Shown here in pieces: positions 29,030-49,866 of a stretch of DNA of 64,000 nucleotides (the stretch's first letter is position 1; each line of letters starts with the position of its first letter). This stretch comes from Paracoccaceae bacterium (lineage in GTDB: Bacteria; Pseudomonadota; Alphaproteobacteria; Rhodobacterales; Rhodobacteraceae). The stretch lies in contig JAOGIM010000003.1 in assembly GCA_028150825.1 (NCBI GenBank), positions 55,861-119,860 on the forward strand, given 5' to 3'. The translations under genes and the position numbers were made by a program. Below the pieces are notes generated by a model. It did not search any database and was not told the origin of the DNA. It saw nothing but the letters and a program-made list of their open reading frames with translations.

Positions 29030-29583
29030 CGACGTAAAAACGCACCCAGCAAAAGGCCCTTCAGATCCAAGGATTGAGCAAAATAACTCAAGACTGAGTA
29101 TTTCAGGTTATTGTTCGAGATGCACCCAAACTCGCCTAGTGTATCCGATTGCTATTCCAACAGCTTCACCTAAAACAATTGCCTAAAAACCAAACATTGT
29201 GGTCAAGTCTGCACAAAAGTTTGAAATCGCATTTGCCAACTTGTGGACGATGGTTTCTGCTCGTCCTCATCCTGACCAACGTTTTTAAAGACTTCGCGTC
29301 CCTGTAGCACATTATATCCAAATCTCGCCGCATAGCGTGCAATTGAATTACCGCTAGCAATGCTTTCAAGGCTTCCAAATCGTTCATCGCCACACAGTTC
29401 ATGCGCTCGCATGAAGGAACTAAATCCAATTTCTTCGGTGGCTAGATTGCCAATAATTATGCGCAGCCTATTTTCACCCTTGAAATCACTAAATATTGAC
29501 TGCGAGATGGAAGTTGCATTCTTGATAAGATGGAGGGTATGATTCTTGCATGAATGAAAATAATATACCTCGCTTTGCCGCAC
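29030..29583 (-). pseudogene. Decayed ROK-family sugar kinase (C-terminal part)
   Basis: FGSLESIASGNSIARYAARFG...GREVFKNVGQ and, in another frame, FANAISNFCADLTTMFGF*AIVLGEAVGIAIGY, as in ROK C-termini. Confidence 0.6.
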
Positions 29584-30536
29584 GTCTTAATGCGTTCAAA
29601 ATTGGTTCTGAGGCCTATTGGCCAGGACGGAATTCTATTGCCACCACTGATATTTTAGCACGTGCAGCCACAGCTGGCTTGAATGCTGCTGATCTAAATT
29701 ATCCAGATCACTTTATCGATGAAAGCCCAACTGATCTGCTGCACGCATTGAGTGAAAATGGAATGAAACTTAATGGTATGGCAATGCGGTATTATACCGA
29801 ACCTGGCTATAAGCTAGGTGCATTCACTAATCCAGTTTCGTCAATCAGGCGTGCCGCAATTGACGAAACAAAACGTGGCCTAGACGTTTTGGCCGAAATG
29901 GGCGGCAACCTAATGACGCTTTGGATGGGGCAAGACGGATTTGATTATTCATTTCAAATGGATTATCAGCATGCCTGGTGTAACACAATTGATGCAATGA
30001 TCGAAGTAGCAGAACACAACCCTGCGATCAACATTGCTTTAGAATATAAACCTAATGAGCCAAGGGCATTTGCGTTAATGCCTGATGCAGCGACAACACT
30101 ATTGGCCATTAAGGAGATTGGGCGCGATAATACTGGCGTCACTTTAGATTTTGCTCATGTACTATATGCAGATGAAATGCCTGCCTTTGCTGCCGCCTTG
30201 ATTGCACGACACTCGCGCATCCTAGGAGTGCATTTGAATGATGGTTACGGCAAGTGGGATAACGGATTAATGGTTGGAGCGGTGCATCCGATACAAACGA
30301 TCGAATTGCTCGTTGAGTTAGAGCGATCGAACTATGGTGGCGCTATTTATTTTGATACCTTCCCGGACCATTCGGGCCTCGACCCTGTTGAAGAGACGCG
30401 AACAAACATCGAGGTTTTACAACGTTTGCGTACTACCGCTTCAAAGCTGGTAAAGAATGGCGAATTACTAACCGCAATTGCAAGACAGGACGCGCCCAAC
30501 GCGATGCGCCTAGTTCAATCAACAATGCTGGCATGA
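29550..30536 (+). CDS. Sugar phosphate isomerase/epimerase-like TIM-barrel protein
   Basis: 328 aa; ALEYKPNEPRAFALMPDA, NTGVTLDFAHVLYA, GVHLNDGYGKWDNGLMVG xylose-isomerase-like barrel motifs. Confidence 0.9.
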   Translation: MNENNIPRFAARLNAFKIGSEAYWPGRNSIATTDILARAATAGLNAADLNYPDHFIDESPTDLLHALSENGMKLNGMAMRYYTEPGYKLGAFTNPVSSIRRAAIDETKRGLDVLAEMGGNLMTLWMGQDGFDYSFQMDYQHAWCNTIDAMIEVAEHNPAINIALEYKPNEPRAFALMPDAATTLLAIKEIGRDNTGVTLDFAHVLYADEMPAFAAALIARHSRILGVHLNDGYGKWDNGLMVGAVHPIQTIELLVELERSNYGGAIYFDTFPDHSGLDPVEETRTNIEVLQRLRTTASKLVKNGELLTAIARQDAPNAMRLVQSTMLA

Positions 30537-31378
30537 GCTTATTAGTAGCAGGCTCACTACACTTAGATGTGGTCTTGCGTGCACCGTATTTGCCGAAGCT
30601 TGATGAAACTGTAGCAGGTAGCTCAGTCGACTACGTATTTGGTGGGAAAGGCGGAAATCAGGCTATTTCTGCTGCGCGCATGGGAGCCACAGTACATTTT
30701 GCGGGGCGCGCGGGCAGCGACCTTTTTGGTGATATGATTCGAGAAACTCTGACAGAAAGCGGTGTAGAGGTATCTCAACTACAACGTGATGTTGGACCTA
30801 GCGGAATGAGTGCTGCGATTGTGGATGCAAACGGTGAATATGGCGCAGTGATCGTTTCAGCAGCCAATCTTAATATCGTGGCAACTGATATAAACATACC
30901 GCAAAAGACATCGCTGGTCATTTTACAAAATGAGATTCCCGAAAAGGTGAACTTGACATTAGCCCATAAGGCAAAGGCGGCTGGTGCTAAAGTTTGGCTG
31001 AATGCTGCACCAGCGCGCGAGCTACCAAAGAATTTAGTTGAAGCGGTTGATCTGCTTATTGTAAACCGAGTGGAAGCGAAATTTTATTCAGATTCAATAC
31101 CTGCAAAAAGCGTTTTAACGACCCTTGGTGCGCGGGGTGTTTACTATAATAATGTTTTATATGCGGGGTTGCTAGTCGATGTGGTTTCGACCCATGGGGC
31201 GGGGGATATGTTTGTTGGTACGCTGGCAGGGCAAGTAGTACGTGGAAAATCTATGGCCGACGCGATTAGGTTTGCGCAAGCAGCCGCAGCCCTGCACGTG
31301 TCCTGTCAACTAGATCGGCGGAAAGATATCAACCCTCAGTCCGTCAAGACATTTTTAGAAAATCAAGACAATCTGTAA
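30533..31378 (+). CDS. PfkB/ribokinase-family sugar kinase
   Basis: GGKGGNQAISAARMGA; THGAGDMFVGTLAG; start overlaps the upstream stop. Confidence 0.92.
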   Translation: MSLLVAGSLHLDVVLRAPYLPKLDETVAGSSVDYVFGGKGGNQAISAARMGATVHFAGRAGSDLFGDMIRETLTESGVEVSQLQRDVGPSGMSAAIVDANGEYGAVIVSAANLNIVATDINIPQKTSLVILQNEIPEKVNLTLAHKAKAAGAKVWLNAAPARELPKNLVEAVDLLIVNRVEAKFYSDSIPAKSVLTTLGARGVYYNNVLYAGLLVDVVSTHGAGDMFVGTLAGQVVRGKSMADAIRFAQAAAALHVSCQLDRRKDINPQSVKTFLENQDNL

Positions 31379-32229
31379 AATCTGGTGGCAGTCGCACCAA
31401 AAATTTGAGCATGGTCAGCCTTAGACAAGCCTTGCGTTAAATCTTGAGCAATGTCATGCCAATCACCATATCCTGCCTGCAGACGACAGACGGGCCAATC
31501 TGATCCCCACATAATCCGACTTGCGCCAAAGGCGCTCAGAACATGCTCTGCGAAGGGACGTAAGTCGTCTATGGTCCAACCGTCTCCAGCCTCAGTAACA
31601 AGTCCTGAAAATTTGCAACATCCACGCGTCTCATCAGCCAGTCGGGAGATATCATTGGCCCATTGCGAAAAAGCATCCTTACCTGAACGCTGATCATAAA
31701 CTTGTGGCTTCATGCAGTGATCGTAGACAATACGCATCTGAGGGTAACGCATGACTAGTTTTAAAAAATTAGGTAGGTGCATCGGAAAACCAAGCGCATC
31801 AAAGGTTATGTCCAAACCTATTATTGCCTGAAATGCCCATTGTACGTCTTCGCGAAGCATCCAGTTTATATCTGGAATGTCTTGGATCATCGGCCGGACA
31901 CCAAGAAACTTTGGGTGTGCCGCAAACCGTTCCAGAATTGTAAGGTCGTTTGGATTTTCGAAATTAATCCAGCCTACAACTCCTTTAATGGATGGCGTTG
32001 CATCAGCCAACCCTAACATATATTCAGTTTCCTGAGCGGTTGGTGCAGCTTGTACTAATACAGTGCCGTCGATGCCATACTTTTCCAAACTTGGCTTAAG
32101 GTCAGATGGGGTGTAAGGACGGTTCAAAATAAGGTTATCTTGCGGCATCCAATCGTAGTCACCTCGCAGCGGTTGCCAAAAGTGTTGGTGGGCGTCAATT
32201 TTCAAATTTGATTTCAAAGCGAAGTTCAT
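31363..32229 (-). CDS. Amidohydrolase_2 family, L-fuconolactonase-like
   Basis: KIDAHQHFWQPLRGDYDWMP; IMWGSDWPVC; start reset to MNFALKSN at 32229 because the longer ORF overlaps the upstream gene. Confidence 0.9.
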   Translation of the reverse strand: MNFALKSNLKIDAHQHFWQPLRGDYDWMPQDNLILNRPYTPSDLKPSLEKYGIDGTVLVQAAPTAQETEYMLGLADATPSIKGVVGWINFENPNDLTILERFAAHPKFLGVRPMIQDIPDINWMLREDVQWAFQAIIGLDITFDALGFPMHLPNFLKLVMRYPQMRIVYDHCMKPQVYDQRSGKDAFSQWANDISRLADETRGCCKFSGLVTEAGDGWTIDDLRPFAEHVLSAFGASRIMWGSDWPVCRLQAGYGDWHDIAQDLTQGLSKADHAQIFGATATRFYRLS

Positions 32230-33254
32230 GTTGGAGCATCCTCGCGTACAAGGCCTGCATCCTTCAGATCTAACCAAAGTGATTTAGGGATATCTGCCTT
32301 TGCAGCTTGCAAATTGCCCGCCATTTCGGCCACTCCTTGTCCTCCAGGTATCACAGCAACGTGGGCTGGATGCAACAGCGGAAACTGGAAAGCAGCATCA
32401 ATCATGCGAACTCCATGACTTGTGCAAACCTCTTCTATGGCGTTCACACGCTTAATGATGTCTTTGGGAGCAGGATCATAGTTGTAGAACGATCCGGGCT
32501 TTGCTCCTGTAGCTAGTATACCAGAGTTATACGGCCCACCCGTTATAATCCCAATTCCACGAGTCTCACAAAGTGGCAAAAAACTATCAAGCGCTTTTTG
32601 CTCTAATAGAGTATAGCGCCCTGCCAGTAGAAAAAGATCAAAATCACCGCGCTCGGCTAGGGCTTGGCAAACCTCCCATTCATTCACTCCACCGCCAATC
32701 GCTTTTATAACCCCTTGATCCCGCAAAGAGATCATTGCGTCATAACCCCGCCCACCAAAGAATTCTTCAACCCGCATGTCTGAGGCTACTTTTGATCCGT
32801 GAGAAAACGCACAAAGGTCGTGTACATATAGGATATCAATCCGGTCCACGCCAAGGCGTGAAAATGAATGTTCAAAAGAACGCATAATGCCGTCATAGGT
32901 GTAGTCAAAATTTTCACGACGTTGCGGTACGTCAAACCATTTACCGACGCCTGCGCGGTGTTCTGGGGCACAATATTCAATCAGACGGCCGACCTTGCTG
33001 GATAAAATGTAACTGTCCCGCGGCTTGTCACGCAAAAACGAATTCAAACGAGTTTCGGACAATCCCAGACCGTAAAGTGGTGCGGTATCATAATAACGCA
33101 CGCCCCCTTCCCATGATGCATCAAGCGTTGCACGCGCCTCATCATCGGAAATAGCCTTGTATAAGTTACCCAATGGTGCTGTTCCAAAGCCCAATTCTGT
33201 AAATGTAAGACCGCCATTCTCAAGCCTATCCCAGTGCCTTGTCTGTAACCCCAT
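32226..33254 (-). CDS. Aldo/keto reductase (L-fucose/aldose dehydrogenase-like)
   Basis: GFGTAPLGNLYKAISDDEARATLDASWEGGVRYYDTAPLYGLGLSE. Confidence 0.93.
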   Translation of the reverse strand: MGLQTRHWDRLENGGLTFTELGFGTAPLGNLYKAISDDEARATLDASWEGGVRYYDTAPLYGLGLSETRLNSFLRDKPRDSYILSSKVGRLIEYCAPEHRAGVGKWFDVPQRRENFDYTYDGIMRSFEHSFSRLGVDRIDILYVHDLCAFSHGSKVASDMRVEEFFGGRGYDAMISLRDQGVIKAIGGGVNEWEVCQALAERGDFDLFLLAGRYTLLEQKALDSFLPLCETRGIGIITGGPYNSGILATGAKPGSFYNYDPAPKDIIKRVNAIEEVCTSHGVRMIDAAFQFPLLHPAHVAVIPGGQGVAEMAGNLQAAKADIPKSLWLDLKDAGLVREDAPT

Positions 33255-33347
33255 TTAAATCTCCATTTGTCGTGACCATAACTATGCCAATTTTGCTTTG
33301 CATGAACAAAATAGCAGATATAACGTTTAGACAAGGGAGAAATAATT

Positions 33348-34148
33348 ATGACTAAGAATTTCAAAAATGTCTTTGGGGAGATCAAACCAGTCATCGCTAT
33401 GGTTCATATCGGAGCGTTACCCGGATCTCCACTTTTTGATCCAGCGTTTGATTTGGTTTCAAGCGCGCACGCTGATCTGGTAGCTTTGCAAAAAGCAGGT
33501 GTTGACGGTGTGATGTTTGGCAATGAAAATGACCGTCCCTACGAGTTCAACGTCGACACCGCCTCCACAGCAACAATGGCGGCGATTATAGGCCATCTTA
33601 AATCTGAAATCACCGTGCCATTCGGTGTCAATGTGCTTTGGGACCCTATGGCCAGCATTGCCTTGGGTGTCGCTACGGGCGCAGATTTTGTGCGTGAAAT
33701 TTTCACCGGCACCTATGCTTCTGATATGGGACTATGGACACCTAATGCCGGACAGGCGATGCGATACCGTGATCGATTGGGACGCTCTGATATGGCTATG
33801 CTTTTTAATATTTCTGCCGAATTTGCTCATTCCCTTGATCAACGTCCCCTGCAAGATCGTGCGCGCAGCGCCGTGTTTTCATCCATCCCAGATGCCGTCC
33901 TAGTGTCGGGCCAGATCACCGGTGAGGCAGCTCCTTTATCAGATTTAGAAGCTGTTAAAGCCGTATTACCTCAAACGGCAGTTATGGCAAATACTGGTGT
34001 AAAGCATGAGACCGTGGCAGACGTTTTGGCCATTGCAGATGGCTGCATTGTAGGATCGTCACTAAAGGTTGATGGGAATACGTGGAACAGCATAGATCCA
34101 GAGCGGGCTTTGGATTTCATGAACCGCGCACGCGCGGCACGAAAATGA
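33348..34148 (+). CDS. BtpA/SgcQ family TIM-barrel protein
   Basis: IAMVHIGALPGSPLFDPAFD; GVDGVMFGNENDRPYEFNVD; GVNVLWDPMASIALGVATGADFVREIFTG; VMANTGVKHETVADVLAIADGCIVGSSLKVDG. Confidence 0.93.
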   Translation: MTKNFKNVFGEIKPVIAMVHIGALPGSPLFDPAFDLVSSAHADLVALQKAGVDGVMFGNENDRPYEFNVDTASTATMAAIIGHLKSEITVPFGVNVLWDPMASIALGVATGADFVREIFTGTYASDMGLWTPNAGQAMRYRDRLGRSDMAMLFNISAEFAHSLDQRPLQDRARSAVFSSIPDAVLVSGQITGEAAPLSDLEAVKAVLPQTAVMANTGVKHETVADVLAIADGCIVGSSLKVDGNTWNSIDPERALDFMNRARAARK

Positions 34149-35239
34149 AAGAACGCATAAAGCGCGATTTAATGGATCTGATGAGGATCCCAGGATTGTC
34201 TGGGCATGAGGATCGTGTGCGCCGTGATTTGCGCAACCGGCTGGATGCCATTGGTATTAAAAGTAGATCAGATCGCTTGGGTAACCTAGTTGCACATTTT
34301 CCCGGCAATGGGCCAAGCGTTATGCTGTTCACACATATGGACCAGCTAGGGTTCATCGTGCGAAAGATCGAGCCAGATGGCCGCATCCGTTTGGAACGGC
34401 TTGGTGGGGTGCCAGAACGAGCATTGGCTGCTCAAGAAGTTTTGATTTGTGTTGGTAAAGGTAGGGATGTTTCTGGTATTATTGCTAACAAAAGCCACCA
34501 CGCAACCACTACTTTGGAAAAATATGAGGTAACGCCCTATTCTGATCTTTATGTAGATACTGGCTTGACGAGCGCAGCCGAAGTTAAGGCGGCGGGTATC
34601 CTTATTGGTACGCCAGTTGTTTATGCGCCTCAAGCTAAAGAATTTAATGACGATTTTATTTGTGGAACCAGTGTTGATGACCGTGCTGGCTGTGCTGTTT
34701 TGCTTGAGGTTGCGCGTCTCTTAAAAAACCGGATAAGTGGTCCTCCCATAGATTTAGCTTTCACAGTACTTGAAGAGTTCAACCTTCGCGGTGCTCTTCC
34801 GCTAGCTCAGAAGCTGCTGCCTGACATTGCGGTTCAGATTGATCTGATGCTTGCAACCGACACGTCAGATATGGAAGCACGCGGGGAAATGGTGCTAGGT
34901 GGCGGTCCAGGGATGAGCCTATATTCCTTCCACGGAAGAGGTACGCTCAACGGGGTAATCCCACATCCGGCGTTAGTCGATCTGTTTGAGCGAACTGCTA
35001 ATACTGAAAATATTCCTTTACAACGTAGTGCCCAAGTAGGGGTATTGACGGACCTATCGTATGTGCAACTGGTCGGCGAAGGAGTGGCCTCTATCGATAT
35101 GGGGTTTCCGATGCGGTATTCCCACTCGGCGCGAGAGCTTTGCAATTTGGAGGATTTAGTTTCGCTTGCCAGGTTGTTAGGGGCGGCTCTTGGTCAGATC
35201 GGGCCAAAATTTTCTTTAAACAGGGATGATTATACTTAA
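34145..35239 (+). CDS. M42-family metallopeptidase-like protein (SgcX/FrvX-like)
   Basis: LMRIPGLSGHEDRVRRDLRNRL; SVDDRAGCAVLLEVARLL; AFTVLEEFNLRGALP; start reset to 34145. Confidence 0.92.
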   Translation: MKERIKRDLMDLMRIPGLSGHEDRVRRDLRNRLDAIGIKSRSDRLGNLVAHFPGNGPSVMLFTHMDQLGFIVRKIEPDGRIRLERLGGVPERALAAQEVLICVGKGRDVSGIIANKSHHATTTLEKYEVTPYSDLYVDTGLTSAAEVKAAGILIGTPVVYAPQAKEFNDDFICGTSVDDRAGCAVLLEVARLLKNRISGPPIDLAFTVLEEFNLRGALPLAQKLLPDIAVQIDLMLATDTSDMEARGEMVLGGGPGMSLYSFHGRGTLNGVIPHPALVDLFERTANTENIPLQRSAQVGVLTDLSYVQLVGEGVASIDMGFPMRYSHSARELCNLEDLVSLARLLGAALGQIGPKFSLNRDDYT

Positions 35240-36726
35240 TGACCTACACACTTGGAATTGATATCGGGACCTATGAGACCAAAGGCGTGTTGGTGGACAC
35301 AACTGGCACAATCCACGCTCAAGCCGCACGTAGCCACAAAATGCTGGTGCCCAAACCTGGCTGGGCAGAGCACAGTCCTGAGCAAGACTGGTGGGGTGAT
35401 TTTATCTTTATTTGCAGAACCCTATTAAGCGAAAGTGATGTCGCTGCATCTCAGATCAAGGCAGTTGCGTGCAGTGCGATCGGTCCATGTATGCTTCCTG
35501 TGGATGCGAACGGCAATCCCTTGATGAACGCTGTCCTGTATGGCGTTGATGGACGTGCTGAAGCTGAAGTGCGCGAACTCACAATGCGCATCGGTGAAGA
35601 GACAATAATAGCGCGTTGCGGTAATGCGCTGACATCGCAATCTATTGGGCCAAAAATACTTTGGCTTAAGCGGCAGCGTCCTAAAATATATTCAGAAACA
35701 TCACATATTTTGAGCTCAACTAGCTTCATTGTCATGCGCCTTACAGGTGAAGTAGTGATTGATCATTACACCGCAGCTAATTTCTCACCACTTTATGATG
35801 TCAAGAAACAGGCATGGGTTGATGACTTGGCCAACGATATTTTGCCGCTGGCAAAACTGCCGCGATTGATGTGGTCAGGCGAAATTGCCGGCCACATTAC
35901 CAAAGAAGCTGAGCAGATGACTGGCCTTGCGTTTGGCACCCCTGTTACCGTGGGCACTATAGACGCTGCTGCAGAAGCACTATCTGTTGGTACGGATACG
36001 TATGGCGATATGATGATGATGTATGGCTCAACTATTTTTATTATTCTAAAAGCCCAGTCCATGGTGACTGATCCCCGGATTTGGTACGCACCTTGGCTGT
36101 TTGAAGGCGAGCATGCATCCATGGCGGGGCTTGCCACTTCGGGCACTCTGACCCATTGGTTTCGGGATCAAATCGCGCGCGATCACTCGGTTCAGAAGGC
36201 GTTCCCTGCCTTGGCCGAAGAAGCGGCAAAATCGCCACTTGGCGCCAACGGTCTGTTGATGCTTCCATATTTTTCAGGTGAGCGGACGCCTCTTCATGAT
36301 GTTAATGCGAAGGGCGCCATGTTCGGGTTTAACCTAACCCATACACGTGGGGATATGTACCGCGCGTTAATTGAAGGAATTGCTCACGGCACACGACACG
36401 TGACTGATACTTTTGCGGAGCTGGATCAAGCCCCAAAACGATTACTTGCAGTTGGTGGGGGAACTAAAAATAGTCTTTGGCTGCAAGCAACATCAGACAT
36501 TACTGGCATTGATCAAATCGTGTGTGAGAAAACAAATGGTGCCAGTTATGGCGACGCATTTTTAGCAGCTATGGCCGTCGGGTTGGCAGACCGAGCAGAC
36601 ATCGCTCAGTGGAACCCTGTGGTAAAGACAATCACTGCTCGGCCAAACGCTGTCTATGAAAAAGCACATGGCTTGTTCCGCAGACTTTACGAACAAACCA
36701 AAGATATTGCCTCAGAACTTACTTAA
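35239..36726 (+). CDS. FGGY-family carbohydrate kinase
   Basis: TLGIDIGTYETKGVLVDTTG; LLMLPYFSGERTPLHD; LLAVGGGTKNSLWLQATSDITG. Confidence 0.95.
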   Translation: MTYTLGIDIGTYETKGVLVDTTGTIHAQAARSHKMLVPKPGWAEHSPEQDWWGDFIFICRTLLSESDVAASQIKAVACSAIGPCMLPVDANGNPLMNAVLYGVDGRAEAEVRELTMRIGEETIIARCGNALTSQSIGPKILWLKRQRPKIYSETSHILSSTSFIVMRLTGEVVIDHYTAANFSPLYDVKKQAWVDDLANDILPLAKLPRLMWSGEIAGHITKEAEQMTGLAFGTPVTVGTIDAAAEALSVGTDTYGDMMMMYGSTIFIILKAQSMVTDPRIWYAPWLFEGEHASMAGLATSGTLTHWFRDQIARDHSVQKAFPALAEEAAKSPLGANGLLMLPYFSGERTPLHDVNAKGAMFGFNLTHTRGDMYRALIEGIAHGTRHVTDTFAELDQAPKRLLAVGGGTKNSLWLQATSDITGIDQIVCEKTNGASYGDAFLAAMAVGLADRADIAQWNPVVKTITARPNAVYEKAHGLFRRLYEQTKDIASELT

Positions 36727-37633
36727 CCGCACCCGCCGCCATGCCCTTAATTATATACTTTTCGAGGGCTATTGCTACAATCACTAAGGGAAGTATCGCA
36801 GCTGAAGATAATGCTGCCATAGACCACCAGTTGATCCCCTGCGACCCAGTTTGAGACGCGACCATGACAGGCAACGTCGTGGCATTAGTCGAGGTTAGCA
36901 GTGCGGCAAAGAAATATTCGTTCCAGCACAATACCAGTGATAAAATAAAGGCGGCAACCATACCAGGCAGCGCTATAGGCATCACGATCTGCATAAATGC
37001 CCCCCAGATCCCAAGGCCATCAACGAGTGCAGCTTCTTCCAACTCTATTGGTATACCTTGAAACTGATCACGCATAATCCAAATCACAATTGGAAGAACC
37101 ATTAAAGTGTAAAGCAAAATCAATCCAATGCGGCTGTCAAGCAGACCCAAAGATTTGTACAAAACAAGAAATGGCAAGGCCAGAACTACAGGCGGTAGGA
37201 TCATTTGGCTAAGGAAGAAAAACGAGATGTCAGAATTTTTCATAAAACCAAATTTGTAGCTGAAACGCGACAGACCGTAAGCGGCGAGTGATCCTAATAT
37301 AACTGCAAGCAGCGAAGCAGAAATTGAAACCACAGCACTATTCCAAAAGCGTTTAAAGAATTCCTCCCGAACGGTTGATACTTCTCCAATCAATCTCGGT
37401 GACAGACCAATAGATTCCCAGCCTTTCCATCTTGGCGTAAAATCCCACCACGGGATCAGGTTGCCCTTCATGACATCAGGAGCCATTTTGAACGAAGTAG
37501 TAATGGTCCAGAAAATTGGAAACAGGCAAACTACCGCCCAAATTAAAAGGGTTAAGTATATTGCTGTGCGGCTAGCCCACCATTTGCTTTTAACGCGAAG
37601 GCCCAATTCGTGGTCTTTAAAAATGACACTCAT
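36719..37633 (-). CDS. Carbohydrate ABC transporter permease (MalG-like)
   Basis: C-terminal permease motif EEAALVDGLGIWGAFMQIVMPIALPG; start reset to 37633 (ATG overlaps the upstream stop). Confidence 0.94.
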   Translation of the reverse strand: MSVIFKDHELGLRVKSKWWASRTAIYLTLLIWAVVCLFPIFWTITTSFKMAPDVMKGNLIPWWDFTPRWKGWESIGLSPRLIGEVSTVREEFFKRFWNSAVVSISASLLAVILGSLAAYGLSRFSYKFGFMKNSDISFFFLSQMILPPVVLALPFLVLYKSLGLLDSRIGLILLYTLMVLPIVIWIMRDQFQGIPIELEEAALVDGLGIWGAFMQIVMPIALPGMVAAFILSLVLCWNEYFFAALLTSTNATTLPVMVASQTGSQGINWWSMAALSSAAILPLVIVAIALEKYIIKGMAAGAVK

Positions 37634-38733
37634 GCCGGCCGCTCCATCCATCGGCTTACTAATTTTAAAAACAGGGTCACGAAGATCACAATAAGAACCA
37701 GATAGACCATTGCGAGCAATGTACCGTAGCCCACATTTGAGCGGTCTCTATATTCTCGGAAGATAAAGCTTGTAACACTGTCGGTTGCCCCACCAGGCCC
37801 ACCTGACGTCACGTTGATGATGATATCAGCTAGCTTAAGTTTAAAAATAATACGGATCACTATAGCAGTGACCGAAACAGGCAACATCAGAGGAAAGATA
37901 ATCTCCTTAAAGCTCTGCCAGCCAGATGCACCGTCAACTTTTGACGCTTCAAGAATTTCACTCGGCAAAGCCTGAAGACCTGCCAAAAGCATAATCATCA
38001 TAAAAGGAATGAACGTCCAGGCATCCATTGCCATGATCATGAAACGCGCTATTTCTGGATCACCAAAAAACGTCGGCTCACCTCCAAGGTCGCGGATAAT
38101 GCGAGAAATTGGGCCAAAGCGGACCTCCAGCATGGACTTTCCAATCATCCATGATACTGCAACCGGACTGAGCATTAGAGGCAGTAGAAAAACGACACGG
38201 AAAAATTTACGCGCTCTGATTTGTGCATTTAGCAAGAGCGCTAACCCAAATGCAATAACGTATTCCACGCAAACGGCTAGCACATAGTACACCATATTCG
38301 TCAAAGCGTTCCAATAAAAGCTGTCGTTCCACATCTGTACAAGGTTATCCCAGCCATTTGGCTGGGGTCCGTTTGGCGACGCAAGGTTCCAATCAGTAAA
38401 GGAAATATAAAGCGCAAAGAGAAGTGGAAAGACAACAAGACTCACTACGAATAGCGCCGCGGGCAGTACAAAAAGCGTGCGCTTGCCTTTTTCTCCATTC
38501 ACAATGACTTGTGCTGCACAAAGGGCTGTAGCCCAAAGCATGTAAGCATAGAGAATTGGGCGCCAAGTTTCAAAACCAATACCAATGCGTCCAGCCTGAT
38601 ACATGGTCTGCAGTAGCGCGAGCATCATACAACACAGTGCCGTGCTCCAGACTATTAACTTACCAAGACGCTTGCGGCTGTCTGAAATATTATCGGCAGT
38701 CACCGTATGTAGAAGGTCTCCATCTGTGTTCAT
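37630..38733 (-). CDS. Sugar ABC transporter permease (MalF-like)
   Basis: EASKVDGASGWQSFKEIIFPLMLP EAA loop; multiple TM segments. Confidence 0.94.
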   Translation of the reverse strand: MNTDGDLLHTVTADNISDSRKRLGKLIVWSTALCCMMLALLQTMYQAGRIGIGFETWRPILYAYMLWATALCAAQVIVNGEKGKRTLFVLPAALFVVSLVVFPLLFALYISFTDWNLASPNGPQPNGWDNLVQMWNDSFYWNALTNMVYYVLAVCVEYVIAFGLALLLNAQIRARKFFRVVFLLPLMLSPVAVSWMIGKSMLEVRFGPISRIIRDLGGEPTFFGDPEIARFMIMAMDAWTFIPFMMIMLLAGLQALPSEILEASKVDGASGWQSFKEIIFPLMLPVSVTAIVIRIIFKLKLADIIINVTSGGPGGATDSVTSFIFREYRDRSNVGYGTLLAMVYLVLIVIFVTLFLKLVSRWMERPA

Positions 38734-38805
38734 AGTCTGTCTCTAGCAATGTAAGAGATGTTTGCAATGGGGTTAGTCACGCAAAACTAATTGATATTCA
38801 TTTAT

Positions 38806-38837
38806 TAAAAAACAGGCGGTGCCAAAACACCGCCTGT
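38806..38837 (-). terminator. Intrinsic terminator between sugar-binding protein and permease genes
   Basis: Minus strand: ACAGGCGGTG-TTTTGG-CACCGCCTGT followed by TTTTT; perfect 10-bp GC-rich stem plus T-tract. Confidence 0.8.
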
Positions 38838-38858
38838 CCCAAGTTCAAATTATCTCAA

Positions 38859-40505
38859 TCACATGCCAAGCGACGCTTTGTACACAGAAATTTGACTGTC
38901 ACGGCCAATCTGGTCAGTGATTTTCTCCCAAGCGGCCGCAATCGCATCTGCGGTTTCTTGGGCAGAGCCATATTGACCAGCATAACCCTTAGCCAACTCA
39001 TCTTCTGCAACAGAATAATATTGAAAAATACCTGGGATGCGTGGTTCGATCGCAGCATTCGGATGGTTGTAGCTGTCTGCGTTAGAGCCAAGATAATCTT
39101 CAACATAAGCGCGTTCGTACCCAGCTTCTTCCCACTCATCATACTGGAAGTGAGAGTTACGGTAAGGCTGAAATCCTGATGGATAAGCAGAGGCCCAAAG
39201 CGACAAGTCCTTACCACCAAGGTGGGCTGCAGCAGACCATGCCGCTTTTTTCTTTTTCTCATCGCCTTCGACTGTAGCCATTACGTACACACCCCAGCCA
39301 ATATATGCCATGTTTGGTGCTTCGTTCCTGGTCTCCTCCCAAGCACCAGCTTTTGCATTGTAAACACGTTCTGAGGCTGGATTTACTCCAAACCCTGCAA
39401 CATCACCAACAACAGATGTATCAGATGTTCGTGCATTAGAGCCAACATCGCCCCACCACATTAGCATAGAACCAGTGCCAGCAAGAAACTGTTGGAACGC
39501 CGTCGTGCCAGGGTCTGCGTTTATTTGGTCAGTGGGGTATGCACCAGCATCAATCAAATCCATAACGTCTTGGATAGCTTGGACCCAAGCCGGATTGTTG
39601 ACCATGGGCTTCATTGTATCCGGCTCAAAAAGCCATGCTGGGCTATTTGGATGCTTAGCATACGCTGATGCGCGGTTTTCAAGGAAGTAGAAGCCAAAGC
39701 CACCCCAACCTTTTAGCGGGTCAAGATAGCCATGCGCGGGAAGTCCAGTAAGGGGGTCTTCTTTACCAATCAGGTCCTTAGAGACTTGATTAATTTCTTG
39801 CCAGGTCGTGGGCACATCGCGCCCAGTAATTGAGCCCTCTCCAAAGTAATCTTTGCGGTAGGCAAACGTGTGGCAATCACCATCAATTGAGACACGATAT
39901 GTTTTTCCACCCCATGTACCAACTGGTGCTTTTAGGTAGTCAACATAGTCGTCCATATCAATTTGTTCTTTGACCCATTCGGGCATCTCTGAAGCCATTC
40001 CTTTGCCAAGCACATCGCCCTCGAAGGGAGCTCCCATCTCAATGATGTCAAAATCAGCTGTGCCCGTCGCGATTGATTGTTGAAGACGCGCATTATAATC
40101 TGCTTGTGCCAAATCAATCCAATTGATCTTTGCCCCAGTGTACGCCTCCCAAGGCTTCAAGAACCCACGGAACAAAAAGTTGTGCAGATTTTGATTGTTA
40201 AGTCCCATAAAGGTCAACTCAACACCCTCAAACTCCCCCTCACTGACGTTACCTTTCGTCGCCCCGAGACACATTTCGCCAACTTTTTGCCAATCGCTGT
40301 CGGTCGGTGAACCTGCACCAACTCCAGGGATTTTCAGGATTTCAGCCCGAACATTTCCATGCGCACCAGCCAAAGCCGTTTTAGGCATCATTGCAACGGC
40401 CCCGATTGCTGCAGAACCTTTTAGAACCTGACGTCGATTCATTTTTTGCGCAGCTTTTATGTAGTTATAAAGTTCGACTTTCATATTATTCCTCCCAAGA
40501 ATCAT
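38859..40505 (-). CDS. Sugar ABC transporter substrate-binding protein with Tat-like signal
   Basis: NRRQVLKGSAAIGAVAMMPKTALAGA signal; SBP_bac_1-like sequence; start may be at an internal ATG (40484 or nearby). Confidence 0.92.
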   Translation of the reverse strand: MILGRNNMKVELYNYIKAAQKMNRRQVLKGSAAIGAVAMMPKTALAGAHGNVRAEILKIPGVGAGSPTDSDWQKVGEMCLGATKGNVSEGEFEGVELTFMGLNNQNLHNFLFRGFLKPWEAYTGAKINWIDLAQADYNARLQQSIATGTADFDIIEMGAPFEGDVLGKGMASEMPEWVKEQIDMDDYVDYLKAPVGTWGGKTYRVSIDGDCHTFAYRKDYFGEGSITGRDVPTTWQEINQVSKDLIGKEDPLTGLPAHGYLDPLKGWGGFGFYFLENRASAYAKHPNSPAWLFEPDTMKPMVNNPAWVQAIQDVMDLIDAGAYPTDQINADPGTTAFQQFLAGTGSMLMWWGDVGSNARTSDTSVVGDVAGFGVNPASERVYNAKAGAWEETRNEAPNMAYIGWGVYVMATVEGDEKKKKAAWSAAAHLGGKDLSLWASAYPSGFQPYRNSHFQYDEWEEAGYERAYVEDYLGSNADSYNHPNAAIEPRIPGIFQYYSVAEDELAKGYAGQYGSAQETADAIAAAWEKITDQIGRDSQISVYKASLGM

Positions 40506-40698
40506 CTTAATCGATTATAAGCAAGAGACGGACGAGCAGCAAATTTAAGTAGTTATTTGAGTGCTGTACGCACTGGCAGTCCTTCCGTATCAAAATTATT
40601 ATGATCCAAAATGACCTAAAGTCAACAAAAGCTATGTGTTGGGCGTGGACAGTACAAAATGGTTTGGCTAGCATCAAAGTCTAGGGAGGCGTCGCAAA

Positions 40699-41736
40699 AT
40701 GGCAAACGTCAAAATACACGGAATTCGAAAGTCTTACGGAACATTGGAGGTTATCCATGGACTGAATATTGATATTAAGGATGGTGAGTTTTTAGCACTG
40801 GTTGGCCCATCTGGTTGTGGAAAATCCACATTGCTTAGGATGATCGCCGGATTGGAGCCAATCGACAGCGGGAACATCGCAATTGGTGAGCGTGTAGTGA
40901 ACAATCTCCCTCCCTCTGAGCGCGACATTGCAATGGTGTTTCAGACCTATGCTCTTTACCCGCACAAAACCGTAGCAGAGAATATGGGCTTTGCGCTCAA
41001 GGTTGCAAAAACTAGCAAATTGGAGATCCAGCGCCGAGTAAGAGAAGCCGCTGAAATCCTCAGCCTGACCGAATATTTAGACCGGAAACCACGTCATTTA
41101 TCCGGTGGTCAGCGCCAACGAGTTGCAATGGGCCGGGCCATCGTTAGGGATCCCCAGGTATTTTTGTTTGACGAGCCGCTATCTAATCTTGACGCGAAGC
41201 TGCGCATTCAGATGCGTACTGAAATTAAAGAATTGCATCAGCGCCTAAAAACAACGACTGTTTTTGTGACACACGACCAGATTGAAGCGATGACACTGGC
41301 AGATAGGATTGTGGTAATGCACGGGGGAGGCATAGAGCAGATTGGCACACCACTTGAGCTTTATGATCACCCAGCCAATGAGTTCGTTGCAACATTCATT
41401 GGCGCGCCATCAATGAATCTACTTGATGGCATCCTGTCTGATGGTAATGTCCGCGTTGGGCCTCAATGTTTTGCCGGCCCAAATGGTACTGGTAATATTA
41501 AGCTTGGTGTCAGGCCAGAACACCTTACTTTGGTTAATGAGGGTGGCCTTCCTATGCAGGTCAAAGTTGTTGAACCGACCGGGGCAGAAACAATGGTTTT
41601 TTTGAGTTATAAGGGTCAGGACGTCACGGCAGTCTTTCGAGAACGCTATACTTTTGAAAGTGGGCAAACCGTCCATCTCAAACCGGACCAAGACCATCTT
41701 CATATATTTAATGCGGAGACCGGGCTGCGACTTTAA
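40699..41736 (+). CDS. Sugar ABC transporter ATPase (MalK/UgpC type)
   Basis: GPSGCGKSTLLRMIAGLE, LSGGQRQRVAMGRAIVRDPQVFLFDEPLSNLDAKLR, C-terminal TOBE region. Confidence 0.96.
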   Translation: MANVKIHGIRKSYGTLEVIHGLNIDIKDGEFLALVGPSGCGKSTLLRMIAGLEPIDSGNIAIGERVVNNLPPSERDIAMVFQTYALYPHKTVAENMGFALKVAKTSKLEIQRRVREAAEILSLTEYLDRKPRHLSGGQRQRVAMGRAIVRDPQVFLFDEPLSNLDAKLRIQMRTEIKELHQRLKTTTVFVTHDQIEAMTLADRIVVMHGGGIEQIGTPLELYDHPANEFVATFIGAPSMNLLDGILSDGNVRVGPQCFAGPNGTGNIKLGVRPEHLTLVNEGGLPMQVKVVEPTGAETMVFLSYKGQDVTAVFRERYTFESGQTVHLKPDQDHLHIFNAETGLRL

Positions 41737-41757
41737 AAATAATATTAGGAGAACAAA

Positions 41758-42204
41758 ATGCTCAGGGGAATAGATCCAATTTTGAATGCAGATGTGCTGT
41801 ATGCATTGCGCGCGATGGGACATGGAGATGATTTGATCATTGCCGACACGAATTTTCCGTCCGAGAGCGTTGCGCGTGAGACTGTGTTGGGAGAGGTCCT
41901 GCGGATAGACCGCAGCGCTGCTGAAGTCATCAAGGCTGTTCTTTCAGTCTACCCGATTGACACATTTGTGGATGATGCCGCTGCCAGAATGGAGGTAGTC
42001 GGAGAGCGTGACAAGATCCTGCCTGTGATGGAAGAGGCTCAGGTCCAAGTGAGTGCAGTCAGCGGTCCTAAGTTGATAGGTATCGAACGCTTCGCTTTTT
42101 ATGGTCGCGCAAAGAACGCTTATGCCGTAATCCAAACCGGTGAGCGACGTTTCTATGGTTGCTTTGCCCTTCGTAAAGGCGTCATTCCGCCGGATGAGGC
42201 CTAA
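41758..42204 (+). CDS. fucU: RbsD/FucU family sugar mutarotase (L-fucose mutarotase-like)
   Basis: MLRGIDPILNADVLYALRAMGHGDDLIIADTNFPSES; FYGRAKNAYAVIQTGERRFYGCFALRKG. Confidence 0.88.
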   Translation: MLRGIDPILNADVLYALRAMGHGDDLIIADTNFPSESVARETVLGEVLRIDRSAAEVIKAVLSVYPIDTFVDDAAARMEVVGERDKILPVMEEAQVQVSAVSGPKLIGIERFAFYGRAKNAYAVIQTGERRFYGCFALRKGVIPPDEA

Positions 42205-42206
42205 CA

Positions 42207-43118
42207 ATGGGAAAAGTTGTTGTCCTCGGAGTGTTTGTTGCTGATACCGCTTACCGCGCAACGCGGATGCCGAATATGGGAGAGACAATCATGGGTACCT
42301 CTTTTGCTCTTGGCCCTGGTGGAAAAGGCTCAAATCAGGCTGTTGCCTGTGCCCGAATGGGTGCTGAAACCCATATTATTACAAAGCTAGGCCAAGACGA
42401 TTTTGCCAAACTGGCACTTGACACTTGGGAGCTGTCAGGGGTTATTCCGCATGTAGAGCAAGTCAGTGACAGTTATACCGGCGCAGCGCACATCTTTATT
42501 GAAGACAGCACAGGTGATAACGCTATTATTGTCGCACCGGGAGCAGCGGCATTGATTGATATTGCAGATATCGAGGCACATGCCGCGTTGATCGCGGACG
42601 CAGATGTCTTTGTAACTCAACTCGAGCAGCCGATGGCTGCGGCAATGCGAGGATTGGAAATTGCGCGTGCAGCTGGGGTGACTACAGTTCTCAACCCTGC
42701 GCCAGCGGCAGTCTTGCCACGCGGCATGCTAGCCTTATGCGATTACGTGACTCCAAACGAAACTGAGTGCGAAGCTTTGACTGGTATTACCGTGCAGACA
42801 CTGACACAAGCAAAACAAGCTTGTGACGCTCTGCGTGATCTTGGCGTAGGAACCCCTATAATTACCATGGGAGACCAGGGCGCATTTTTAGATGGCCACG
42901 GGCTTGTCGCTGCCTCAGCTCCCGGTGCTGTTATAGAAACAACAGGTGCAGGAGACGCATTTAACGGTGGTCTTGCTGCGGTTTTGGCTGAAAAGAAGTC
43001 TTCTTTAGAGGCTGTATGCTATGGCTGTGCAACGGCAGGTATCTCCGTAACGAAAGCTGGAACAGCACCCGCAATGCCGAACAGAGACATGGTAGACTCT
43101 TTCATCAGATTGACCTAA
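42207..43118 (+). CDS. Ribokinase-like PfkB kinase
   Basis: GPGGKGSNQAVACARMGAETHIITKLGQDDF; TTGAGDAFNGGLAAVL. Confidence 0.93.
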   Translation: MGKVVVLGVFVADTAYRATRMPNMGETIMGTSFALGPGGKGSNQAVACARMGAETHIITKLGQDDFAKLALDTWELSGVIPHVEQVSDSYTGAAHIFIEDSTGDNAIIVAPGAAALIDIADIEAHAALIADADVFVTQLEQPMAAAMRGLEIARAAGVTTVLNPAPAAVLPRGMLALCDYVTPNETECEALTGITVQTLTQAKQACDALRDLGVGTPIITMGDQGAFLDGHGLVAASAPGAVIETTGAGDAFNGGLAAVLAEKKSSLEAVCYGCATAGISVTKAGTAPAMPNRDMVDSFIRLT

Positions 43119-43599
43119 ATCATCTGTACCAAAATTGCTTATAATTCCAACGATTTCAAGGCACACTTACTGAATGGCTGACGAGTTTAAGCCCCACTGA
43201 ACAAGTCGACCAATCCCTTGGGTAAAAACACGGAACCATTATAAAGTTCGCTTTTCAAGACTTACCATAAGAAAAGAGACAAAACCCTGCGTATAATAAG
43301 GCTCGCCCGATATCCAATATCTACCAACCAGTATCTACCAGAAATGTTGTGCTATATGGGTTGATTTATTGGAATGCAATAGCGAGCTAGGCCTTAACTT
43401 TTACTCAAGCATACAATAAAATGGTCAAAATAATCCGTTTAAGTATCAGGCTTAAGAAGCTATGACCTTAATTAATTTTTTAATACATATTCTAATGAAC
43501 ATTATTATTTAAAAAACTCAGATTTAATAAGATTATTGACTGATATAAGTCAAAAATTAATTGCTTTTTTAACAAAAATAAATTTATTATAAGAAAAGC

Positions 43600-43614
43600 A
43601 ACAAAATTTTTGTT
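43600..43614. promoter_or_regulatory. Palindrome upstream of the deoR-family gene, putative operator
   Basis: AACAAAA-T-TTTTGTT perfect 7-bp inverted repeat about 22 nt upstream of the ATG at 43636. Confidence 0.35.
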
Positions 43615-43635
43615 CATTCGAAGATAAGTTTAAAA

Positions 43636-44412
43636 ATGTCACTTAATGATCGTCAAGAAGAAATCCTTAAGTCACTTTACCAGTTTGGAGCAGTTGAAGT
43701 CGAAGCGCTTGCATATGAGTGGAGCGTCACAACCCAAACCGTTCGCAGAGATTTAACAGAACTTTGTGCATCTGGTTTAGCACTTAGAACGCATGGTGGT
43801 GCCAAGCGCATGAACACAAAAGCCGTGGTTGCATATGCAGACCGCAGACTGAAGCACACTTTGGCAAAAAGATTTATAGCAGAAGCGGCTTCAAATATTA
43901 TTCCTAATGGTGCGTCGCTTACCCTAAATATTGGAACAACTACCGAGATGGTCGCGGAAGCACTACGCTTCCACAAGGACCTGACAGTTGTGTCAAACAA
44001 TATCAATATTGTTCAAATTCTGAGAGCCTCAAGGCTTAAATCTCTCGTTCTCATTGGGGGTGAGATACGTCTCTCTGATGGTGCCATAATTGGAGAAGAT
44101 GCAATTAAAGCTATTTCGAATTTCAAGGTAGACTTCGCAATCATTGGTGCTTCCTCTATCGAGCCAGACGGCTCAGTCTTGGACTTTGATCAACGAGAAG
44201 TCGCCGTTTCCAGAGCCATTTTAGAAAACGCACGGCATAAGATACTTGTCGCCGACATTTCAAAATTTGACGTTTCCGCTCATGTAAAAATCTGTGACGC
44301 AAAAGACCTCGATTACGTCATATTAAATGCGCCTCCCCCAATAGGCTTTAAGGCCGTAATACAATCACATCCCACCAAACTTATTATTGCAGGCGAGAAA
44401 AATGCCAGCTAA
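43636..44412 (+). CDS. DeoR/GlpR family transcriptional regulator
   Basis: N-terminal HTH NDRQEEILKSLYQFGAVEVEALAYEWSVTTQTVRRDLTELCASGLALRTHGGA; DeoR C-terminal sensor domain. Confidence 0.95.
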   Translation: MSLNDRQEEILKSLYQFGAVEVEALAYEWSVTTQTVRRDLTELCASGLALRTHGGAKRMNTKAVVAYADRRLKHTLAKRFIAEAASNIIPNGASLTLNIGTTTEMVAEALRFHKDLTVVSNNINIVQILRASRLKSLVLIGGEIRLSDGAIIGEDAIKAISNFKVDFAIIGASSIEPDGSVLDFDQREVAVSRAILENARHKILVADISKFDVSAHVKICDAKDLDYVILNAPPPIGFKAVIQSHPTKLIIAGEKNAS

Positions 44413-46000
44413 TGCTAACAATGTAGATATTTTCATCATTGGCGGCGGCATAAATGGCTGTGGTATTGCACGTGACGCTGCTGGTCGCGGATATAAGGTT
44501 GCCTTAGCAGAAATGAATGATCTGGCCTCCGCAACATCCTCTGCATCTACAAAGCTATTCCACGGTGGTCTCAGATATCTGGAATTTCTTGAATTTCGGC
44601 TTGTACGAGAAGCGCTCATCGAGAGAGAGGTTTTACTCAGAGCGATGCCACATATTTCTTGGCCGATGCGATTTATTTTGCCCTTTCATAATGAGATGCG
44701 CTTTGAGAATGATACGCCAACATCAAAAATTTTATCATTCTTTCTGCCGTGGATGAAAGGTCGCCGCCCAGCTTGGCTCATTCGGTTTGGGCTTTTTCTC
44801 TATGACAATTTAGGGGGCCGAAAAATTTTACCCGGAACAAAGACACTTAAGCTTCACTCTTGCGATGAAGGCAAACCTCTTGTGTCAAAATTTGAAAAGG
44901 CTTTTGAATATTCTGACTGTTGGGTTGAGGATTCCCGGCTTGTTGTTTTGAATGCACGCGATGCCTACGCAAAAGGCGCCACCATTCATGTGCAAAGTAA
45001 GGTTATCTCGGCGACTTTCACGACCGGCTTGTGGCATATCGTAACGCGAAACTCTGACGGGTACGAACGGACTACAACTGCTAAAATGATCATAAATGCA
45101 GGAGGACCTTGGGTTGAAGACATCATTCGAAACACTGTTCGTCTAAATTCAACAGAGGGTGTCAGGCTCGTCCGTGGTAGTCACATCGTGACCAAGAAAT
45201 TATACGAACACGACAAATGCTATTTCTTCCAAGGAGAAGACGGAAGAATAGTTTTCTCAATACCGTATGAGGACGATTTTACTCTTATTGGGACGACAGA
45301 TGCCGATCACGAGAGTCCGAGTATTAAACCCGTCTGTACACCAGAAGAGACGCTCTATCTGATCGATTTTGCAAATAAATATTTCATCAATCAGATCTCT
45401 AAAGACGATGTTCTATGGACCTACTCTGGTGTCCGTCCACTATACAATGATGGTGCGAGCTCTGCAACAGCCGCAACGAGAGATTATGTTTTAAAAGTCA
45501 ACCACTCAGCGGGCGGACCTGTATTGAATATTTTTGGTGGAAAAATAACAACTTATCGCAGATTAGCAGAGTCCGCATTAGAATTAATAGACGCTGAATT
45601 TATGCGGAAGACAAATAAATGGACTGCAAAAGCTCCCATGCCCGGTGGCGACTTCCCAGTCACCGGTCTGAAGAACCTTTGCGATAAACTTGGTAAGAAA
45701 CTGCCGTTCTTGTCAGAGAAAATAATAAAACGTTTGATCCAACAATATGGCACAGAAGCGGCGATTATATTTGAGGGGTGCACTTCATTAGATAATCTTG
45801 GTAAAAATTTTGGCCATGGAATCTTCCAACAAGAATTAGATTGGACAATCGAAAATGAATGGGTTACGCAAGCCGATGACTTTCTTTGGAGACGATCAAA
45901 ACTTGGCCTTCGTCTGCGCGATGAAGAGAAAAATGAGATCAATGCCTATATTGCGAAATACATTACAGACCAACGTACAAAATCCTTAAATCGTTTTTGA
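44402..46000 (+). CDS. glpD: Aerobic glycerol-3-phosphate dehydrogenase
   Basis: DIFIIGGGINGCGIARDAAGRGYKVALAEMNDLASATSSASTKLFHGGLRYLE; start reset to 44402, overlapping the regulator. Confidence 0.94.
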   Translation: MPANANNVDIFIIGGGINGCGIARDAAGRGYKVALAEMNDLASATSSASTKLFHGGLRYLEFLEFRLVREALIEREVLLRAMPHISWPMRFILPFHNEMRFENDTPTSKILSFFLPWMKGRRPAWLIRFGLFLYDNLGGRKILPGTKTLKLHSCDEGKPLVSKFEKAFEYSDCWVEDSRLVVLNARDAYAKGATIHVQSKVISATFTTGLWHIVTRNSDGYERTTTAKMIINAGGPWVEDIIRNTVRLNSTEGVRLVRGSHIVTKKLYEHDKCYFFQGEDGRIVFSIPYEDDFTLIGTTDADHESPSIKPVCTPEETLYLIDFANKYFINQISKDDVLWTYSGVRPLYNDGASSATAATRDYVLKVNHSAGGPVLNIFGGKITTYRRLAESALELIDAEFMRKTNKWTAKAPMPGGDFPVTGLKNLCDKLGKKLPFLSEKIIKRLIQQYGTEAAIIFEGCTSLDNLGKNFGHGIFQQELDWTIENEWVTQADDFLWRRSKLGLRLRDEEKNEINAYIAKYITDQRTKSLNRF

Positions 46001-48884: not shown

Positions 48885-49866
48885 TTAATTATTGTACGAA
48901 TAATTGGAATTTAAAATCTCACCGAATGTCTTTGGGTCAATGTTACCTCCCGAAATCACAGCTACGACATTCTGCCCACAGAACTGCGGACGCAATGCTG
49001 CTGCTAATGCTACCGCGCCAGCTCCCTCAGAAACCAAACGGGCTTTTGAGGCCAAAGACCGAAGTGCTTTCTCAGCTTCTGAATGAGAAACAACTATCAC
49101 ATCGTCAACCAACACATCCATAAGAGGCCACATCTCAATTAAGACACTGGTTGAACCAATCCCATCAATCCAACTCTTTCCCCGTTTGACTTTTACCGGT
49201 TTTCCATGAGTTTTGGCAGATTTCAAAGGCGTTGAACTTTCTATCTCACAGGCAATAATCTGCGGTGTTTTTCCCAGAGCCTTCATTGCCAAAGCTATTC
49301 CGGAAATCATGCCGCCCCCCCCCAACCGGTACAACAATCACGTCTACATCCAGACACTGCGATGCAATCTCTAGTCCAATCCCAGCATTCCCAATAATCA
49401 CTTCTAATTCTGCAACTGGATGAATAAAGAAACCCTCTAAACCAGACGTTCTGGTCATCATTACCCCCCACCACTCAGAAAATGATACAGAGGTTACTTT
49501 TGCGCCAAGATCTAAAAGGGCTTCCACTTTCACTTTAGCGGCAGTATCTGGAACAATGACGTGAACAGGTAATCCACGATTCTGAGCGGCCTTGGCAACT
49601 CCCTGACCAAAATTACCAGCACTAGCGGTTATAACACCGTTTTGCAGATCTTTTTCGTCAGCTGTCTCAATCGCATTCGCGCCCGCCCTTATTTTAAAAG
49701 AGCCAAGTTCTTGCAAGCATTCTGCCTTAAGCATTAACTTTCGATCGGAACACTCAAATGGCAATAAGGGCGTTTCAATAATTTCATCTGAAATTCGATC
49801 GGCCGCTTCTTCAAAATCTTTTAGCGTTAGCTGAAAAGCTGCCTCTGCAATCGAAATTCTGTCCAT
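48885..49866 (-). pseudogene. Threonine/serine dehydratase-like PLP enzyme (fold type II), frameshifted in a G9 tract
   Basis: ORF 49246-49866 (ECLQELGSFKIRAGANAI, SAGNFGQGVAKAA) and ORF 48885-49337 (GGGGMISGIALAMKALGKTPQIIACEIES) join as VIVVPVGGGGMISGIA if one G is removed from the tract at 49315-49323. Confidence 0.85.

Follow-up and report, generated by a model that had tools for sequence, protein, structure and literature searches.

The 64,000-nucleotide stretch analysed here (hereafter, the window), from a metagenome-assembled genome (MAG; 2.34 Mb, 62.7% complete) of a marine Paracoccaceae bacterium of the Roseobacter group, whose closest public relatives are Paracoccaceae/Planktomarina MAGs, raises the question of whether a dense run of sugar genes encodes one pathway. 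At its centre lies a trio of genes for a BtpA/SgcQ family protein, an M42 metallohydrolase and an FGGY-family sugar kinase. A preliminary description had treated the whole run, up to the GlpR and GlpD genes, as a single sugar-catabolic supercluster. Our analysis suggests, at a rough probability of 55%, that the locus instead joins two sugar-use modules: module A, which includes a dedicated ATP-binding cassette (ABC) transporter, and module B, the trio, which would act on a sugar phosphate. Genes were called from the open reading frames (ORFs) of the window combined with Pfam and NCBIfam profile scans. All genes named previously were recovered at or near the positions assigned to them, and two were added: a xylose-isomerase-like gene and a fuconate-dehydratase pseudogene. 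The reported ATGA (34145-34148) and TAATG (35237-35241) junctions, by which the BtpA-M42 pair is tightly coupled to the FGGY kinase gene, were exact in the DNA.

At least 80 loci were obtained when public sequences were searched for matches to an M42 alignment. The counts below refer to the 80 listed and are conditioned on M42, since M42 was the query. BtpA was linked in 75 loci and FGGY in 77; BtpA and M42 were no more than 70 bases apart in 70 of 76 measurable loci, and FGGY lay within 30 bases of M42 in 76 of 77. The hosts spanned many alphaproteobacterial families (Roseobacter-group and other Rhodobacterales, Devosia, Bauldia, Mesorhizobium, Chelativorans, Rhizobium, Aureimonas, Microvirga and Inquilinus), together with the gammaproteobacterial Granulosicoccaceae. 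The typical order was isomerase-PfkB-<lactonase-<AKR-BtpA-M42-FGGY-<permease-<permease-<binding protein-ATPase-FucU-ribokinase, where < marks a reversed gene and AKR is an aldo/keto reductase. Among 56 loci with full flanks, we found the permeases in 43, AKR in 41, the binding protein in 39, FucU in 36, the lactonase in 33, the ribokinase in 30, the isomerase in 28 (next to the first PfkB kinase, PfkB1, where present), PfkB1 in 24, SIS and creatininase-like genes in 12 each, fuconate dehydratase in four, and GlpR/GlpD in three. The neighbourhood analysis that had been proposed earlier was thus carried out, and it showed that the trio is conserved elsewhere: its genes are linked far above chance, and their order recurs in most of the 80 loci, usually beside the same ABC transporter. 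GlpR and GlpD, by their 3/56 occurrence, were rejected as members and are probably mere neighbours outside the system. Comparison between relatives indicated purifying selection on all genes (dN/dS 0.01-0.19). As a separate observation, genes for a NagA-like deacetylase and an SIS sugar isomerase stand directly upstream of the trio in the Devosia loci L093, L108 and L109.

Conservation within the locus was highest in the solute-binding protein, which exceeded FGGY and M42 in 47/47 loci (dN/dS 0.011-0.021 between relatives). A wider survey of 399 Pseudomonadota genomes gave 12 orthologues of it, of which only three belonged to genomes carrying the trio (G000, G320 and G379); in G379 the binding protein was on a different contig from the trio. 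In Rhizobium etli and CIAT894 it was accompanied only by permeases, LacI, FucU and ribokinase, and in Agrobacterium and Rhizobium NLR16a by the isomerase, a second ABC transporter, an RpiR regulator and PfkB. The other Rhizobiaceae loci (L208-L214) had the order AKR-SIS-(creatininase)-<permeases-<binding protein-ATPase-FucU-ribokinase, with the place of the trio empty. Aureimonas, Aurantimonas and Microvirga carried DeoR-BtpA-M42-FGGY with RbsBAC and DhaKL, and the Devosia and Aureimonas trio loci had no isomerase. Because transporter loci occur free of the trio and trio loci occur with another transporter, each module is also kept alone. We have high confidence in the composition, conservation and modularity of the locus; the view of the supercluster as one pathway is not supported. 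In the DhaKL-type loci L079, L088, L091, L104 and L136, we also observed an RbsC-like match in a gap of about 1 kb between BtpA and M42.

Loci L209-L214 resemble the window in their orthologous transporter, with binding proteins 64-67% identical, and in the arrangement of FucU, ribokinase and AKR. They differ in the absence of the trio, whose gap is unfilled, and in SIS and creatininase-like genes that the window does not have. We had considered tying these two genes to the trio and dropped the idea, since they stand by AKR in trio-free Rhizobium loci. The loci lie near lon, and also near hupB where it could be seen, and their AKR, SIS (6-phospho-3-hexuloisomerase-like), creatininase-like, ABC, FucU and ribokinase genes would form an unassigned sugar pathway of their own. 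A literature search for the SIS-creatininase-ribokinase set and for Atu2016 found nothing relevant. On the conjugative plasmid of L218, Qat anti-phage genes (6287-8891) lie directly beside the rhizobial binding-protein locus.

The closest known relative of module B is the E. coli sgc operon (sgcXBCQAER), which likewise encodes SgcQ and SgcX with phosphorylating sugar uptake and a DeoR-type regulator. The window BtpA was 47% identical to SgcQ and the M42 protein 34% identical to SgcX. The trio M42s and SgcX have in common the motif EEFN[LI]RG and an inserted HGRGT motif, whereas E. coli YpdE and FrvX have neither, in line with the SgcQ/SgcX assignment made earlier. The first motif was exact in 73 of the 80 loci, with EEYNLRG in two of the remainder, and HGRGT was found in 79. 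Across the 399 genomes, only five M42s carried both motifs, all five with BtpA alongside, and the other M42s carried neither; a hypergeometric estimate for this co-occurrence, calculated by hand without correction for kinship, was about 1e-7 (five genomes from four families). Membership in the M42 family was supported by the PF05343 score and the conserved catalytic motifs: H64, D178, E210/E211, D233 and H327, which we take to have catalytic roles, occupied invariant columns and aligned with the YpdE motifs. Judged from the sequences, EEFN in place of EEVG and the inserted HGRGT suggest an altered specificity.

In place of the sgc PTS (phosphotransferase system), the window has an FGGY kinase and, as had been pointed out, an ABC transporter beside the SgcQ/SgcX-like pair. 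The SgcX-type M42 stands next to SgcQ as in sgc, whereas the profile scans detected no PTS gene in the cluster (IIA, IIB or IIC) and the SgcE-type epimerase is absent; AKR, lactonase, FucU, ribokinase and isomerase are added. A 2026 E. coli atlas reported that sgc is induced on nitrogen-containing carbon sources, that its substrate is unknown, and that the tested sgc mutants showed normal growth both on standard substrates and across 190 Biolog carbon sources (PMC13343008). Our literature search on the function of BtpA, SgcQ and SgcX yielded sgc regulation and a working model but nothing further, and it returned no description of the trio. The trio appears to be a conserved, previously undescribed functional unit, the ABC/FGGY counterpart of sgc.

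The window BtpA passed both family cut-offs (Table 1). Of the 399 genomes, 19 contained a BtpA above the family cut-off. The flanks of 19 BtpA genes were read, a set that excluded the gene of the window itself and hits below the threshold. Five kinds of loci could be told apart: the sgc PTS operon; DeoR-BtpA-M42-FGGY-RbsBAC-DhaK; the window type; DeoR-BtpA-FGGY-SDR-(HAD)-ABC; and loci in which a divergent BtpA (about 30% identity) adjoins a PfkB kinase and, in many cases, ribose-type ABC genes. In 18 of the 19 loci a sugar kinase (FGGY or PfkB) or PTS stood beside BtpA, either directly or across no more than the M42 gene, one for a permease-like protein or a single other gene; the single exception was the weakest BtpA match. 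A rough hand estimate puts the chance rate of a kinase neighbour at about 3% (10 PfkB/FGGY genes in the 2.34-Mb window genome). Loci of the fourth kind (Rhizobium, Salipiger, Labrenzia and Thermus plasmids) also place a BtpA, 55-67% identical to that of the window, by FGGY, DeoR and a sugar ABC transporter, whereas M42 is absent, SDR and a HAD phosphatase (the latter not in Thermus) take its place, and the FGGY belongs to another clade. The divergent BtpA-PfkB loci (for example L148, L150, L135, L142 and L147), which also encode some of a set of phosphotriesterase-like, GATase1-like (PF07090), M20 peptidase and TenA proteins, are apparently also undescribed and possibly represent a nitrogen-containing sugar pathway.

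An AlphaFold2 model of BtpA, built on 27 sequences, none of them from the plasmid or E. coli loci, had a pLDDT of 94.1. Foldseek matched it to KDPGal aldolase, thiamin phosphate synthase (ThiE), TrpA, ribulose-phosphate 3-epimerase (Rpe), PcrB and PRAI, and BtpA is accordingly predicted to be a phosphate-binding-type TIM barrel. Residues H20, N59, R116, R139, R166 and K240, among others, were invariant across all BtpA types in the alignment. A sequence search found no solved structure among BtpA relatives. From the predicted fold and the constant neighbours, we infer with moderate confidence that the substrate of BtpA is a sugar phosphate made by the neighbouring kinase.

The trio FGGY kinases formed a separate supported clade (12 rows, support 100/97) and share 18-26% identity with eight FGGY kinases of E. 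coli and 30-34% with those of the SDR-type loci; the E. coli rows have long branches, and the deeper joins of this tree are not to be used. The window kinase scored below every NCBIfam equivalog cut-off, including those for D-xylulokinase (TIGR01312, 290.7 against 380.25), FucK (107.4 against 470.9) and RhaB (46.9 against 527.95). Its closest solved relative, 3IFR, was put under XylB by context in a study of the FGGY family (PMC3245297). The E. coli lyxK-sgbH-sgbU operon offers a working analogy: an FGGY kinase, then a phosphosugar TIM barrel, then a xylose-isomerase-like TIM barrel, although SgbH is a decarboxylase of another family, M42 is absent and the transporter is different.

Taken together, the two-module reading would run as follows. 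In module A, the transporter would import one sugar, which would be handled by FucU (a mutarotase), the ribokinase-like PfkB, AKR and the lactonase, and in many genomes by an isomerase-PfkB pair. In module B, FGGY would make a sugar phosphate, probably of a ketose or polyol; BtpA would bind this product in its TIM barrel and, as a guess, convert it by isomerisation, epimerisation or aldol-type cleavage; M42 might act as a hydrolase on the imported compound or on an intermediate, the bond cleaved being probably an amide. Our confidence in the M42 chemistry and in the substrate of the locus is low. More broadly, we propose tentatively, at slightly less than even odds, that an SgcX-type M42, BtpA and a sugar-phosphorylating partner constitute a single, previously undescribed catabolic route of Pseudomonadota, of which sgc is the PTS form and in which BtpA would be a new class of sugar-phosphate enzyme and M42 a specialised sugar-conjugate hydrolase, not a general aminopeptidase. 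The locus places BtpA/SgcQ and SgcX alongside a kinase and a binding protein of strong conservation, in hosts that are free-living, so that the substrate can now be approached via the binding protein and the reaction via the kinase product and BtpA. A sequence search found no solved relative of the binding protein; because its model was moderate (pLDDT 71.6) and matched many MalE-like proteins, no ligand can be named.

Several points weigh against this reading. Both modules stand together in most loci with sufficient flanks, and they may act on the same compound, in which case the two-module split would be misleading. The trio frequencies are biased by the selection on M42, and the unbiased sample contains only five SgcX-type M42s. 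The Foldseek TM scores for BtpA were only about 0.6, too low to read a reaction type off the fold; and the BtpA alignment contains no lysine at a barrel-strand end, which argues against class I aldolase chemistry and weakened it as a candidate. The amide guess is weakened by the lack of any gene for handling amines in the window cluster.

One alternative is that the whole cluster oxidises L-fucose (or L-galactose/D-arabinose) nonphosphorylatively, through ABC import, FucU mutarotation, AKR to the lactone, the lactonase to the aldonate, then the dehydratase and later steps, with the trio, isomerase and PfkB as passengers or serving a second sugar. We consider this unlikely. In its favour, FucU is present, the nearest solved AKR relatives are L-galactose dehydrogenases (9w6y, 8scc), and the lactonase is closest to 4dlf and to the fucono-lactonase model NF052480, although its score (213.5 bits) fell well under the cut-off of 400. 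The AKR dehydrogenase, Amidohydrolase_2 lactonase, FucU and dehydratase relic recall the Xanthomonas/Burkholderia-type L-fucose pathway, and a few loci add fuconate dehydratase, UxaA-like, fumarylacetoacetate hydrolase (FAH) and SDR genes. These were linked in few of the 80 loci, however (fuconate dehydratase 5, FAH 6, UxaA 8), and Rhizobium keeps AKR, the transporter and FucU without any of the three. The Xanthomonas/Burkholderia-type pathway also has no role for the trio, the isomerase or either PfkB kinase, and its later steps are unlinked in the window. A search of the window's own genome showed that its dehydratase gene is a pseudogene, with a frame break and three TGA and one TAA codons inside the longer piece; full-length intact homologues exist in L059, L060 and L096, and no close intact copy was found in the 62.7%-complete MAG. 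Upstream of the isomerase, an AGE-family (GlcNAc 2-epimerase) gene is intact in one congener (L031, 743-1981) and split over several frames in another (L030, 3876-5024), and the window yielded no copy of it. The locus is eroding at its edge, and the decay is confined to that edge while the core genes are under purifying selection; a fucose branch thus explains at most part of module A. The 6-deoxysugar hint given earlier holds only in part: AKR, lactonase and FucU would fit L-fucose oxidation, but the dehydratase gene is dead in the window.

Another alternative is a single phosphorylative route in which the isomerase makes a ketose, FGGY phosphorylates it and BtpA cleaves the product as an aldolase, replacing FucI-FucK-FucA or RhaA-RhaB-RhaD. 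An isomerase, a kinase and a phosphate-binding TIM barrel do share the locus, KDPGal aldolase is among the closest BtpA folds, and DhaKL in the Aureimonas/Microvirga form would suit dihydroxyacetone release. We nevertheless regard it as quite doubtful: the isomerase-PfkB pair accompanies the transporter in Agrobacterium and Rhizobium without FGGY or BtpA, trio loci lacking the isomerase exist, and BtpA has no strand-end lysine. The profile scans found no FucA/RhaD-type aldolase among the cluster genes, and the E. coli-type phosphorylative fucose/rhamnose pathway (FucI/RhaA, FucK/RhaB, FucA/RhaD) was not recovered. As had been suspected, we found no characterised pathway that matches the whole cluster.

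It is improbable that BtpA and M42 are accessory factors, such as a chaperone or a transporter-regulating peptidase, and not catabolic enzymes. The name BtpA was originally given for cyanobacterial photosystem I biogenesis, yet the window protein scored only 160.6 against the equivalog cut-off of 400 of the corresponding model (NF045918). SgcQ has PTS chaperone-like features according to the atlas (PMC13343008), whereas the pairing of BtpA with three unrelated kinds of kinase (FGGY, PfkB and PTS) is more easily reconciled with a common type of substrate than with chaperoning of a transporter, and the conserved M42 motifs match the YpdE catalytic motifs when aligned. Chance accumulation of sugar genes on an island, to which the mixed strand orientation and the GlpR-GlpD and dead fuconate dehydratase genes not common to other loci might point, can practically be dismissed and is already refuted for the conserved set: the order is kept in several families belonging to two classes, every gene is under strong purifying selection, and decay is seen at the edge only.

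The genes of the locus are listed in Table 1. The stop of the xylose-isomerase-like gene overlaps the start of PfkB1, and the true start of the lactonase-like gene is probably at about 32229.

Table 1. Features of the sugar locus in the window, with strand and supporting matches.
Feature	Position	Strand	Evidence
L-fuconate-dehydratase-like pseudogene, enolase superfamily (MR_MLE)	27704-28923	-	46-50% identity to L096 1633-2931, two frames
Xylose-isomerase-like TIM barrel (sugar isomerase/epimerase)	29550-30536	+	PF01261 77.5 bits; best PDB 3ktc 176 bits
PfkB-family sugar kinase (PfkB1)	30533-31378	+	PF00294 138 bits
Amidohydrolase_2, L-fucono-1,5-lactonase-like	31363-32277	-	PF04909 135.6 bits; best PDB 4dlf
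Aldo/keto reductase (AKR)	32226-33254	-	PF00248 144 bits; PDB 9w6y, 8scc
BtpA/SgcQ family protein	33348-34148	+	PF03437 252 bits (cut-off 30); TIGR00259 255.9 (cut-off 153.4)
SgcX-type M42 metallohydrolase	34145-35239	+	PF05343 234.8 bits; signatures EEFNLRG, HGRGT
FGGY-family sugar kinase	35239-36726	+	FGGY_N/FGGY_C
Sugar ABC permease, MalG-like	36719-37651	-	PF00528; orthologue in 60/80 loci
Sugar ABC permease, MalF-like	37630-38733	-	PF00528; orthologue in 60/80 loci
Extracellular solute-binding protein, TAT signal	38859-40505	-	PF01547, PF10518
ABC transporter ATPase, UgpC/MalK-like	40699-41736	+	NF008653 504 bits, above cut-off
FucU/RbsD-family sugar mutarotase	41758-42204	+	PF05025 116 bits; PDB 2ob5 183 bits
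Ribokinase-like PfkB kinase	42207-43118	+	PF00294 177 bits; TIGR02152 281.8, just below cut-off 299.65
GlpR-type DeoR regulator	43636-44412	+	NF008154 208 bits
GlpD glycerol-3-phosphate dehydrogenase	44387-46000	+	NF008899 728 bits, above cut-off

Elsewhere in the window, a threonine/serine dehydratase-like PLP enzyme is encoded at 48885-49866 on the reverse strand. Its 206-amino-acid ORF covers only the first half of the family and is followed by a separate 150-amino-acid ORF in another frame, possibly marking another decayed gene.

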